A DNA stretch of 64,000 bases, taken from contig CACYPH010000003.1 in the NCBI GenBank assembly GCA_902776185.1, positions 20,263 to 84,262 on the forward strand, given 5' to 3'. Position 1 is the stretch's first letter. Each line of letters begins with the position of its first letter. Origin of the DNA: an uncultured Ruminococcus sp. (lineage in GTDB: Bacteria > Bacillota > Clostridia > Oscillospirales > Acutalibacteraceae). The notes under the pieces are model-generated. The model did no database searches. It worked only from the letters and a program-made list of their open reading frames with translations, and was not told the DNA's origin. Both the position numbers and the translations under genes were made by a program. Of the stretch, positions 56,596 through 58,856 are shown one piece after another.

Positions 56596-56629
56596 CAGGT
56601 TGCCTGAGAGATCAGACAACCTGTTTTTC
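56596..56629. terminator. Terminator after mscS
   Basis: CAGGTTG-CCTGAGAGATCAGA-CAACCTG followed by TTTTT; the stem also has an A-rich left flank for the minus strand. Confidence 0.85.
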
Positions 56630-57123
56630 TATGCTGTGATTTTATTTTCATCCTGCACGCTTCGATAAAATGCAAGCAAGATCAAGACATAGCAGATCGT
56701 TTTCGGCAGCATGAACATCCCGAGAATCTCAAGATACGATGCGCCGAGGACGACCACCAGATAAAAGGCGAACGATAATGTGATATACAGCCAAATCAAA
56801 CGCATATGCGGAATCTCGCGCTTCGTAAAATACAGCACGATGATCAGGATTCCGAGGATCAGGAACGGGATATTGCGGAGAATCCCCCAGAGATACGGGC
56901 TGTCGTTCTCGATCCATCGATTCTGCGGAAAGCAGCAGAGAATGATGCGGACCGAGCTGAGCAGATAGACGGCGGCGGTGATCACGCGCTTCTCCTCTAC
57001 CCCATCAAAATGCAGATACACATGATAGATCAGCACATAAAAGACGGTCATGGTGATGGAGGTCACCAGCTTGCCGACGCCGATGGCAGTATTGAAATCG
57101 CCGTCGACAAAATAGTTCAGCAT
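56629..57123 (-). CDS. Five-helix membrane protein of unknown function
   Basis: A 164-aa hydrophobic protein with about five membrane helices (for example IPFLILGILIIVLYF and FAFYLVVVLGASYL). No family motif recognised. The frame is open only 11 codons upstream of the ATG and there is no good ribosome site, so the true start or integrity is uncertain. It is about 220 bp downstream of the radical SAM cassette, with hairpin repeats between, so co-transcription is unclear. Confidence 0.55.
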   Translation of the reverse strand: MLNYFVDGDFNTAIGVGKLVTSITMTVFYVLIYHVYLHFDGVEEKRVITAAVYLLSSVRIILCCFPQNRWIENDSPYLWGILRNIPFLILGILIIVLYFTKREIPHMRLIWLYITLSFAFYLVVVLGASYLEILGMFMLPKTICYVLILLAFYRSVQDENKITA

Positions 57124-57233
57124 TCGCGGGACAAGGTGGAACGCGTCGCCTCATCCGAGTACCAGACTAGCTATGCCCATTAAACGCTGTTTATAATTCT
57201 TTGATCGAAATGAACATCCCCGGTGCAAGCACT

Positions 57234-57345
57234 AAAGTGTCCACCGGACACTTTACCCGCGCACAGCGCGGGCGGGGTATCACTTCGCTTCGCTCTACGG
57301 ATTACGTGACTCTTTCGCTGCAAGCAGCGGGGAATTATACCCTAA
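57234..57345. repeat. Hairpin-repeat region (family E)
   Basis: AAAGTGTCC-ACC-GGACACTTT (57234-57254) and CCCGCGC-ACA-GCGCGGG (57256-57272) are perfect stems; CGCTG-CAAG-CAGCG follows. The rest of the 222-bp gap between the membrane protein and the 27-aa ORF shows no gene. No T run makes it a standard terminator. Confidence 0.75.
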
Positions 57346-57429
57346 CTATGTTATTAAAATCAAAATACCGATCGTAATAGCAAATATCAGATACAAGATA
57401 TCAAATGTGCTTTCTCCGTATTCTTTCAT
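57346..57429 (-). CDS. 27-aa hydrophobic peptide coupled to the radical SAM gene
   Basis: The sequence begins MKEYGESTFDILYLIFAI and ends in TIGILILIT, so a polar N-terminus is followed by one membrane-length helix. Its ribosome site AGGAAGGTGA lies in the last codons and stop of the radical SAM gene; its ATG is 4 bases past that stop. The strong ribosome site and spacing support real translation. It could be a membrane anchor, a toxin-like or leaderless peptide, or a substrate. No family recognised. Confidence 0.6.
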   Translation of the reverse strand: MKEYGESTFDILYLIFAITIGILILIT

Positions 57430-57433
57430 CTAA

Positions 57434-58462
57434 TCACCTTCCTGTATTTTTGGCGCAGTTGGGATATTCGTATAGCTTCTGATGGGTGAAATAGTTATAG
57501 GAACGACATCCGCCCGCGCAGTAAGCGCCCATCTCACAAGAGGAGCATTTACCGGTCAGCATAGACGGCGTAAAACGGCGGTTATACGCGAAGGCGTCGG
57601 GACTTTCCCAGATCTCTCGCAGTGTAGTACTGCGCAGATTGCCCTCGTTGAACCGCTCGTCATACATCGACTCGCAACCCTTGACGTTGCCGACGCTGTC
57701 GATACCGATGACCGACAGTCCCGCGCCGCACCCGGGAAAGACTCTTTGTCCGCGTCTGTCACCGCGAATCAGCGATTCATCCGCTGTAAAATAGCCGATA
57801 TTATCGGCGATCCCGATCGCAAAGGCAGATTCTTCACGATGCCGCACGACAAAGTCGATCACCGTGTGCGGATCAAAGCGATAATCGATCCCCATGACGG
57901 CGGCGTTGCCCATCGGTGAACACGCCTGCAGCTGCCACGCCGCGATCGGATATTGCATGAGTATTTGATAGAACGGTTCGAGCGTCATGATGTTTTCTGC
58001 ATTCAGGGTGGTAAGCACCGTGGTGATGATCCCTGCACTTATCAGCGTTTCGATCGCCTTGATCGCGCGGGCATAACTGCCCTGCTGGCGGTATTTATCA
58101 TGCACCGGCTCGATCCCGTCGAGCGATACCGCGACGGATTCGATATTGACGTCCTTGAGATCGCGGATGATGGCGTCGGTGAACAGAAAGCCGTTGGTGA
58201 TGATCGTGACACGGATACCGTCGTCTGTCAGCCGTTCAACGATCGTTTTCCAGTCACAGCGTATAAAGACCTCGCCGCCGATCAGGTTGACGCGTCGACA
58301 GCCCAGCTCCTTCAACTGGCTACAGACGTCGAGACATTCGTCGGTCGATAATTCATCGGGGCGCGCTTTGCCCGCCTTGGAGCCGCAGTACTTGCACAAA
58401 AAGCAGCACGCTAGGGTGATCTCCCAGACACAGGAAGTCAGGCGGTACGGACAATCACTCAT
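57434..58462 (-). CDS. Radical SAM/SPASM domain protein
   Basis: A 342-aa radical SAM enzyme. The SAM cluster motif CCFLCKYC (Cys19, Cys23, Cys26) follows SCVWEITLA. LIGGEVFIR is the GGE motif, ITNGFLF and SVAVSLDGIEPVHDKYR are typical barrel strands. The C-terminal SPASM domain has CGAG, GCESM, KCSSCEMGAYCAGGC and YPNC, for two auxiliary 4Fe-4S clusters. Such enzymes modify peptides or proteins (anSME, PqqE, sactisynthases). ATG 58462 is preferred: it overlaps the upstream gene by 8 bases and gives a normal N-terminus, whereas the longer frame is only antisense-like read-through. Peptide substrate probably encoded next door. Confidence 0.88.
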   Translation of the reverse strand: MSDCPYRLTSCVWEITLACCFLCKYCGSKAGKARPDELSTDECLDVCSQLKELGCRRVNLIGGEVFIRCDWKTIVERLTDDGIRVTIITNGFLFTDAIIRDLKDVNIESVAVSLDGIEPVHDKYRQQGSYARAIKAIETLISAGIITTVLTTLNAENIMTLEPFYQILMQYPIAAWQLQACSPMGNAAVMGIDYRFDPHTVIDFVVRHREESAFAIGIADNIGYFTADESLIRGDRRGQRVFPGCGAGLSVIGIDSVGNVKGCESMYDERFNEGNLRSTTLREIWESPDAFAYNRRFTPSMLTGKCSSCEMGAYCAGGCRSYNYFTHQKLYEYPNCAKNTGR

Positions 58463-58856
58463 CGCAAGGCTCGTCATCGATCGGAGGACCGGCATAAACA
58501 TCGCCGGGGTCTTCATCTTTTTCCTGATAATTCTGCGGATACGGGGGCTGTGCGAAGCCCATGCCCACAAAGCCCATTCCGCCGGTATTCGGTTGGCTGG
58601 ACGGGATCTGAGGTCCGGCATAGACCGCCATCGGCATCTGCGGCGCCGGTGCGGGATGATCTGCCGACTTTAAGGGCATACCGCATTCACAGCAAAATTT
58701 CGCATCAACCGGCTGGCGCTTGCCGCACTTCGGGCAAACGATCGACGGCGCTTCCATGCCATCGCCGTCGACAGGCGGGTCGGGCATCCTGATTCGGTTG
58801 TTCATCATCTCTGGACCTGCATAAACACATTCCATGATGAAATCTTTTTTACTCAT
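58455..58856 (-). CDS. VYAGP-repeat zinc-ribbon protein, candidate radical SAM substrate
   Basis: A 133-aa protein with three copies of VYAGP (residues 11-15, 78-82, 120-124), each followed by a different short tail (EMMNN, QIPSS, PIDDE). Between copies 1 and 2 is a zinc ribbon, CPKC (41-44) and CCEC (55-58). Pro/Gly/Gln-rich linkers join them, and the end is acidic. No signal peptide. ATG 58856 follows a weak AAGTGAT site. The overlapping radical SAM/SPASM gene suggests that the VYAGP units, or residues near them, are modified. I do not recognise a named family; function is inference. Confidence 0.7.
   Translation of the reverse strand: MSKKDFIMECVYAGPEMMNNRIRMPDPPVDGDGMEAPSIVCPKCGKRQPVDAKFCCECGMPLKSADHPAPAPQMPMAVYAGPQIPSSQPNTGGMGFVGMGFAQPPYPQNYQEKDEDPGDVYAGPPIDDEPCDE

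Follow-up and report, generated by a model that had tools for sequence, protein, structure and literature searches.

A VYAGP-repeat zinc-ribbon protein and a radical SAM/SPASM enzyme form a conserved gene pair in Clostridia and a candidate tyramine-excision system

Introduction

What does a radical S-adenosylmethionine (SAM) enzyme do next to a protein that carries the same five residues, VYAGP, three times over? The question is raised by a 64,000-nucleotide stretch of DNA (the window) from an uncultured Ruminococcus sp. (GenBank assembly GCA_902776185.1, contig CACYPH010000003.1, positions 20,263 to 84,262 of the forward strand), in which the repeat protein, here called P0001, is encoded 5´ of a radical SAM/SPASM enzyme. 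A sequence-only reading of the window had proposed a modification cassette of three parts, namely P0001, the enzyme and a 27-amino-acid (aa) membrane peptide, and had placed nothing known near it. Here we consider which of these parts belong together, which characterized enzymes are closest, and what chemistry the VYAGP units might undergo.

Two known chemistries are relevant. Published accounts of the PlpXY splicease describe excision of tyramine at XYG, with several events per precursor possible and a leader that is dispensable, and state that spliceotide products inhibit proteases (PMC10533398, PMC10373908, PMC11002830, PMC11117315). For the mycofactocin maturase MftC, which acts on a Val-Tyr pair, one account describes decarboxylation of the Tyr followed by its linkage to the adjacent Val (PMC8326336).

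Results

A conserved two-gene unit

P0001 has the architecture given in the sequence-only reading, with three VYAGP units spread over its 133 residues and a zinc ribbon (CxxC...CxxC), which lies between units 1 and 2. The match of P0001 to the Pfam family DZR (3.9e-5, 24.1 bits) is slightly short of the cut-off of 27.3. The ATG of the enzyme gene lies within the 3´ end of the P0001 gene, and this 8-base overlap would fit translational coupling.

We assembled 49 loci for comparison. A scan of genome contigs gave 42 enzyme relatives at 57-67% identity, all from Clostridia and including Lachnospiraceae and Oscillospiraceae; goat, sheep, water buffalo or reindeer appears in the titles of 17 of these 42 records. 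An ortholog of at least 55% identity was present in 7 of the 98 genomes of the relatives search, the genome of the window included. An ORF (open reading frame) with the motif [VL]Y[AG][GAP]P was found immediately 5´ of the enzyme in 48/49 loci, of which L011 and L070 are not independent because their enzymes are identical. Two precursors stand in tandem in L040, and those of L051 and L060 are atypical, with few units. The nearest relative, L010 (genome G058), has an enzyme 78% identical to that of the window. The VYAGP enzyme of G043 (L015, G043:C162) is split over two overlapping frames, by a frameshift or an assembly error.

The association also holds when the search starts from the repeat. 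A DNA pattern for MxxVYAGP gave seven matches in 5 of the 98 genomes, all on enzyme-bearing contigs (G000, G021, G024, G043 and G052), and none in the 91 genomes without the enzyme; the chance that five matched genomes would all fall among the seven is ~3e-7 (hypergeometric, by hand). This pattern recovers five of the seven enzyme-bearing genomes, missing G053 and G058, and its reversed control gave one match, in G074. Across 394 genomes of the order, a pattern of VYAGP followed by [ED-like]-[YF]-F matched in five (none for the reversed control); four of these have the enzyme downstream, and the fifth precursor stops at a contig end. Widespread VYAGP proteins without a radical SAM neighbour, which had been named as counting against a dedicated system, were not what these searches returned: in the genomes searched each occurrence was next to the enzyme, save one at the end of a contig. 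An ORF with two or more copies of.Y[GA].P was present in none of 37 control loci (30 radical SAM loci and seven plasmid loci, among them relatives of the enzyme clade). P0001 and the enzyme are a conserved two-gene unit.

Repeat units and a second shared motif in the precursors

The 49 related precursors, a set from which the unrelated first ORF of L052 is left out, contain 198 copies of [VLAI]YA[GA]P, compared with a mean of 0.16 and a maximum of 2 in 300 shuffles; the repeats are not a chance occurrence. Residue preferences were taken from 240 distinct xYxxP sites, a pattern that builds in the Pro at +3, counted in ORFs untrimmed to the start codon and with the first ORF of L052 included. 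The residue before Tyr is Val at 199 of these sites and that at +2 is Gly at 200, while +4 is Glu at 94 and Asp at 29, and Tyr, Met or Phe are common at +5 and +6. Each ORF has from 1 to 11 sites. In an alignment of the 49 precursors V11, Y12, A13 and P15 are nearly invariant, and beyond the units the proteins are hardly alignable (mean column identity 11%). Together with the 48/49 pairing, these repeat statistics support the earlier proposal of a dedicated radical SAM modification pair with the VYAGP units as likely sites.

A zinc ribbon was recognized by regular expression in 43 of 48 loci, the others being L010, L060, L064, L065 and L068, and Pfam DZR matches 34/49 precursors at E 0.001. 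We considered and rejected the idea that the ribbon is essential for modification, because the precursor of L010, the nearest relative, is without it and yet retains three YAGP units (VYAGP, TYAGP and VYAGP) and the PYPQNYQ segment. A YP dipeptide outside the xYxxP units is present in all 49 precursors, compared with 15.4 on average and 25 at most over 1000 shuffles, in forms such as KYPWIK and PYPxNY, and we propose it as a candidate recognition element for the enzyme. Pfam listed no Nif11 or NHLP leader and no DUF1843 on the 49 precursors, nearly all matches being to zinc-ribbon families; the family libraries searched gave no entry particular to the precursors.

Placement of the enzyme

The second ORF was correctly named in the sequence-only reading as a radical SAM/SPASM enzyme: Pfam matches it to Radical_SAM (8.8e-25) and SPASM (1.1e-6). 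A CxxxCxxC radical SAM motif is present, along with a SPASM region with seven invariant Cys. It is one of many such proteins in its own genome, which gave 18 radical SAM matches. An AlphaFold model (predicted local distance difference test 82.4, predicted template modelling score 0.85) has its best fold matches among solved structures in SkfB, PqqE and SuiB.

NCBIfam scores were read from the best 25 of 80 matching models, none of which reaches its cut-off. The first is TIGR04103, nif11-class peptide radical SAM maturase 3 (229.8 bits, cut-off 725), followed by TIGR03913, the GDL peptide maturase (210.3 bits, cut-off 591.75), and mycofactocin maturase (143.9 bits). These scores led us to reject sactipeptide and mycofactocin membership, and likewise the identity as anaerobic sulfatase maturase (anSME) that had been raised as a possible known clade for the enzyme (65.6 bits, cut-off 349.45). 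PADLOC models for viperin also match (3.1e-18), which we read as remote kinship among radical SAM enzymes. The absence of any known system nearby was not sustained: the nearest curated families are the nif11-class maturase 3 and the GDL-peptide maturase, and in the examples examined the substrates carry X-Tyr motifs too.

Relatives in plasmid records come from Agathobacter rectalis (41% identity), Aureibacter (36%), Azospirillum (33-35%), Nostoc (nif11_3, 34%) and Tropicibacter (32%), and MftC is at 29-32%. We built a quick tree of 69 rows and a careful one of 65 rows from which four long rows were removed; the split enzyme of L015 is in neither, nor are ten radical SAM loci that had been intended to serve as outgroups (L016-L021 in part, L023, L026, L034 and L036). 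In the careful tree the VYAGP enzymes are a single clade of 50 rows (support 100/99). They group with the nif11_3 and GDL enzymes and with a clostridial clade that includes the A. rectalis enzyme WP_015515522, here called KYGxP after its neighbouring repeats (99/97), to the exclusion of two rSAM_w_lipo-like enzymes and two MftC. PlpX, a SPASM radical SAM protein (IPR026482), is presumably a member of TIGR04103, and the family is represented in the tree by the Nostoc protein, which at 853 bits is over the TIGR04103 cut-off.

Sixteen positions characterize this grouping: V12, G54, W71, Q177, Q179, M184, N186, Y224, E229, R233, G244, G253, G262, S265, I284 and L302. Each is kept in at least 90% of the VYAGP enzymes, at least 5/6 KYGxP enzymes and at least 4/5 nif11_3/GDL enzymes, while no more than one of the four rows for MftC and rSAM_w_lipo has it, in a comparison made without the outgroup rows L111 and L112. 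Fifteen of the 16 are absent from both MftC rows. Judged by family scores, tree position and these residues, the enzyme is splicease-like, kin of the nif11_3 and GDL-peptide maturases.

Partners of related enzymes

Beside the Nostoc nif11_3 enzyme is a Nif11 peptide with the C-terminal sequence LYGLPPELF, and beside those of Aureibacter and Azospirillum are DUF1843 peptides with LYA, MYA, PYG, LYG and MYM. On an A. rectalis plasmid (NZ_CP143948) a 35-aa ORF ending in MYGTGVRM (L081 5806-5913) lies upstream of WP_015515522. This ORF is not in the collection's gene table, which is incomplete; WP_015515522 is followed by a major facilitator superfamily transporter. This is a splicease-like cassette from a species of the human gut that is in culture.

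A class-wide search with the A. rectalis enzyme matched 10 of 245 genomes at 1e-40, comprising five close relatives (51-54%), the genome of the window, two other members of the VYAGP clade and a pair of rSAM_w_lipo-like enzymes. X-Y-G repeat ORFs (KYGVP, KYGVEP, LYGIEP and the like) are within ~2.4 kb of all five close clostridial enzymes. In G643 (L115 5227-6237) nine KYGVP-like units are fused to a chagasin protease-inhibitor domain (PF09394, 5.3e-12), and in G560, G625, G508 and G475 the ORFs encode leader-GG peptides with LYGIEP, KYGVEP and similar units. Every branch of the enzyme clade thus has X-Y-(G/A/M) partners, the Tropicibacter enzyme excepted, for which a substrate was not looked for. 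The KYGxP enzymes at L098-L102 have a long C-terminal extension that by eye is like a tetratricopeptide repeat. The two rSAM_w_lipo-like enzymes, which also have an X-Y-G-x-P partner, form another clade apart from this one.

Other features of the locus

The ribosome-binding site of the 27-aa ORF does lie inside the end of the enzyme gene, as the sequence-only reading had it, with AGGAAGG in the last codons. The peptide itself has to be struck from the cassette. The DNA 3´ of the enzyme can be aligned between the window and L010, where the ORF continues into an intact membrane protein of 214 aa, for which Pfam gave nothing at E 0.01. The 27-aa ORF is identical to the start of this protein at 19/26 residues and a further ORF of the window (56629-57123) to its remainder at 114/159. 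The supposed third component is the 5´ remnant of a membrane-protein gene that a dispersed repeat interrupts; the repeat has 17 matches in its own genome (whole or partial, the query itself counted), several of them at contig ends.

Other ORFs conserved in the flanks of the 42 contig-scan loci are a minus-strand ORF over the cassette (10 loci) and a KsgA-like protein (seven loci), named by eye, which fits local synteny. Flank clustering, itself incomplete (enzyme recovered in 33/42 loci, precursor in 26/42), gave no transporter, exporter or peptidase gene as a conserved neighbour in these loci. No relatives in viral contigs were found by two patterns; phage records gave 10 with a match, of which the eight listed are at 22.8-31.1% identity.

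Table 1. Coordinates in the window of the gene pair, its motifs and the decayed gene downstream
Feature	Position	Strand	Basis
VYAGP-repeat zinc-ribbon protein P0001, 133 aa (putative substrate)	58455..58856	-	translation; repeat ORF 5´ of the enzyme in 48/49 loci
VYAGP unit 1, residues 11-15, Tyr12, candidate modification site	58812..58826	-	translation, motif statistics
VYAGP unit 2, residues 78-82, Tyr79, candidate modification site	58611..58625	-	translation
VYAGP unit 3, residues 120-124, Tyr121, candidate modification site	58485..58499	-	translation
Zinc ribbon of P0001, residues 41-62	58671..58736	-	Pfam; regular expression in 43/48 loci
PYPQNYQ segment, second shared precursor motif (YP), candidate recognition element	58524..58544	-	YP in 49/49 precursors; present in L010
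Radical SAM/SPASM enzyme, 342 aa, splicease-like	57434..58462	-	Pfam, NCBIfam, trees, signature residues, AlphaFold model
27-aa ORF, N-terminal stub of decayed membrane-protein gene	57346..57429	-	DNA and protein comparison with L010
Dispersed-repeat copy inserted in the decayed gene	57209..57345	-	17 matches in own genome
Remainder of the decayed gene, 164-aa ORF	56629..57123	-	72% identical across 159 aa to the intact protein of L010

Discussion

To judge from the conserved pairing and the repeats, the target of the enzyme is very probably the tyrosine in each VYAGP unit of P0001. Tyramine excision at VYAGP is in our view the most likely chemistry, and a probable one given the analogy with PlpXY. 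The VYAGP enzymes are in the clade of a TIGR04103 member, and the WQ[LI]Q....MGN and GY positions are common to them and the Nostoc stand-in; in both systems the Tyr mostly follows a hydrophobic and precedes a small residue, with several sites per precursor. The VYAGP precursors differ from those of PlpXY in having Ala for Gly after Tyr, Pro at +3 and a zinc ribbon, and the cassettes are without a Nif11 or NHLP leader. Because a strict X-Tyr-Gly site, a leader and, in the flanks, a PlpY-type partner (a RiPP, or ribosomally synthesized and post-translationally modified peptide, recognition element; RRE) were each looked for and not found, we do not file the system as a spliceotide.

The other members of the clade offer similar mixtures. 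The GDL maturases are associated with DUF1843 peptides that have X-Y motifs, and they too have a zinc ribbon, but at the C-terminus of the enzyme (zf-ChsH2 4.4e-4 in P0009, under the cut-off); their substrates are small, with one site each and two or three per locus read, in contrast to the VYAGP precursors. The zinc-ribbon-like C-terminus was seen in the GDL-type enzymes of L082 and L084 (P0007 and P0009), whereas in the VYAGP systems the ribbon is on the substrate, and it is possible that this is a swapped docking module. The KYGxP clade is likewise clostridial, with X-Y-G-x-P or X-Y-G-x-x-P repeats near each of the five close relatives of the A. rectalis enzyme. Four of these five have short precursors with a leader-like stretch ending in GG, the five enzymes themselves are longer (511-545 aa as open frames), and none of the libraries searched has a family for the clade. 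The rSAM_w_lipo system (TIGR04133) also has X-Y-G partners, but is outside the clade and lacks the QxQ....MxN residues; the one such enzyme scanned reaches 280.5 bits, below the cut-off of 425.

A number of observations weigh against tyramine excision. The residue after Tyr is Ala at 207 of the 240 sites and Gly at only 8, and none of the three units in the window has Gly there. The enzyme falls short of the cut-offs of both its nearest families, and in the tree a Nostoc protein takes the place of PlpX. The union of the VYAGP and KYGxP enzymes alone is weak (86/55), with long branches flagged. Among the signature positions G54, Y224 and L302 are shared with the TIGR04053 row and the PqqE row alike, and I284 with one of the two; these four are therefore the least telling. 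Lipoprotein-like ORFs stand beside the rSAM_w_lipo-like enzymes with VYGPP three times (L118 4434-4829) or with LYGVP (L119 6709-6930); since XYGxP thus occurs next to enzymes outside the clade, the motif alone cannot fix the chemistry. L047 has a VYAGP-clade enzyme and no repeat ORF in 2.2 kb upstream (its substrate may be elsewhere in that genome). Among the conserved flank ORFs of the 42 loci there was no PlpY-type RRE partner, in a comparison run without an RRE model and with an RRE elsewhere in the genome possible. Nothing else of at least 50 aa recurred in more than five loci as a third conserved gene, in a clustering that recovered the enzyme in 33/42 and the precursor in 26/42, with some flanks ending with the contig, so that a small gene could be missed.

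The Pro three residues after Tyr, which the X-Y-G rule leaves unexplained, also speaks for a different radical reaction at the same Tyr, such as a crosslink to Val or Pro, oxidation or epimerisation. SPASM enzymes have many chemistries, V-Y is the dominant pair in the units, and the third-best NCBIfam match is the maturase described as linking decarboxylated Tyr to Val (PMC8326336). The MftC enzymes form a separate clade, with the MftB chaperone gene adjoining MftC, and the residues that the VYAGP enzyme has in common with the XYG clade are nearly all missing from them, which argues against such a reaction, as does the well-supported grouping. MftC chemistry requires a C-terminal Tyr, whereas the VYAGP tyrosines are internal. 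On balance we regard another reaction at this Tyr as unlikely.

Two further explanations fare worse. A thioether-forming multi-core system of the sactipeptide or ranthipeptide kind, using Cys near VYAGP, would draw on Cys as the commonest residue two before Tyr (39/240, as in ECVYAGP) and on SkfB as the top match among solved structures by both sequence and fold; this Cys is missing at 201/240 sites, however, the remaining Cys of P0001 are mostly in the CxxC pairs of the ribbon, and PapB (63.6 bits) and SkfB (71.2 bits) score far below the 230 of TIGR04103, so that we give the idea almost no weight. That P0001 is a regulator or scaffold, co-transcribed with an enzyme that acts elsewhere, would suit a zinc ribbon, a generic binding module, and the want of a leader-like N-terminus. 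It is nonetheless very improbable: only the VYAGP unit, with YP, stands out in the alignment of the 49 precursors, the pairing is nearly absolute, and related enzymes are near short peptides with an X-Y motif.

If the enzyme excises tyramine, it would recognize its partner with no neighbouring gene for an RRE protein that binds leaders, act on the conserved Tyr of each X-Y-A-G-P unit and cut part of that Tyr from the chain, leaving reactive keto-amino acids. Each VYAGP site would lose 135.08 Da and become an alpha-keto-beta-amino acid, at up to three sites in P0001. The product would be an intracellular, presumably cytosolic, protein with several electrophilic ketoamides. It might plausibly act as a covalent protease trap or inhibitor, a role we propose because other spliceotides inhibit proteases and a related clade has the chagasin fusion. 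A bolder version, which we offer tentatively and think rather doubtful, is that rumen and gut clostridia make leaderless, RRE-less cytosolic proteins with up to ~10 ketoamide warheads, many of them anchored by a zinc ribbon, as multivalent covalent protease traps; the chagasin fusion would then point to the function, and the YP segment present in every precursor would be the recognition element in place of leader and RRE.

The open literature searched gave no description of the VYAGP cassette, a search that did not cover Scott et al. 2022. That study is said in reviews to show a wide distribution of such systems, and part of the findings may already be in it. If tyramine excision at VYAGP is borne out, unannotated gut and rumen proteins would each carry several backbone-edited electrophilic residues installed by one enzyme with no leader or neighbouring RRE, and the substrate rule would broaden from X-Y-G to X-Y-A-G-P. 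The units would provide compact splice tags with which to label proteins, and ketoamide arrays would be linked to protease inhibition through the chagasin fusion seen in the related clade.

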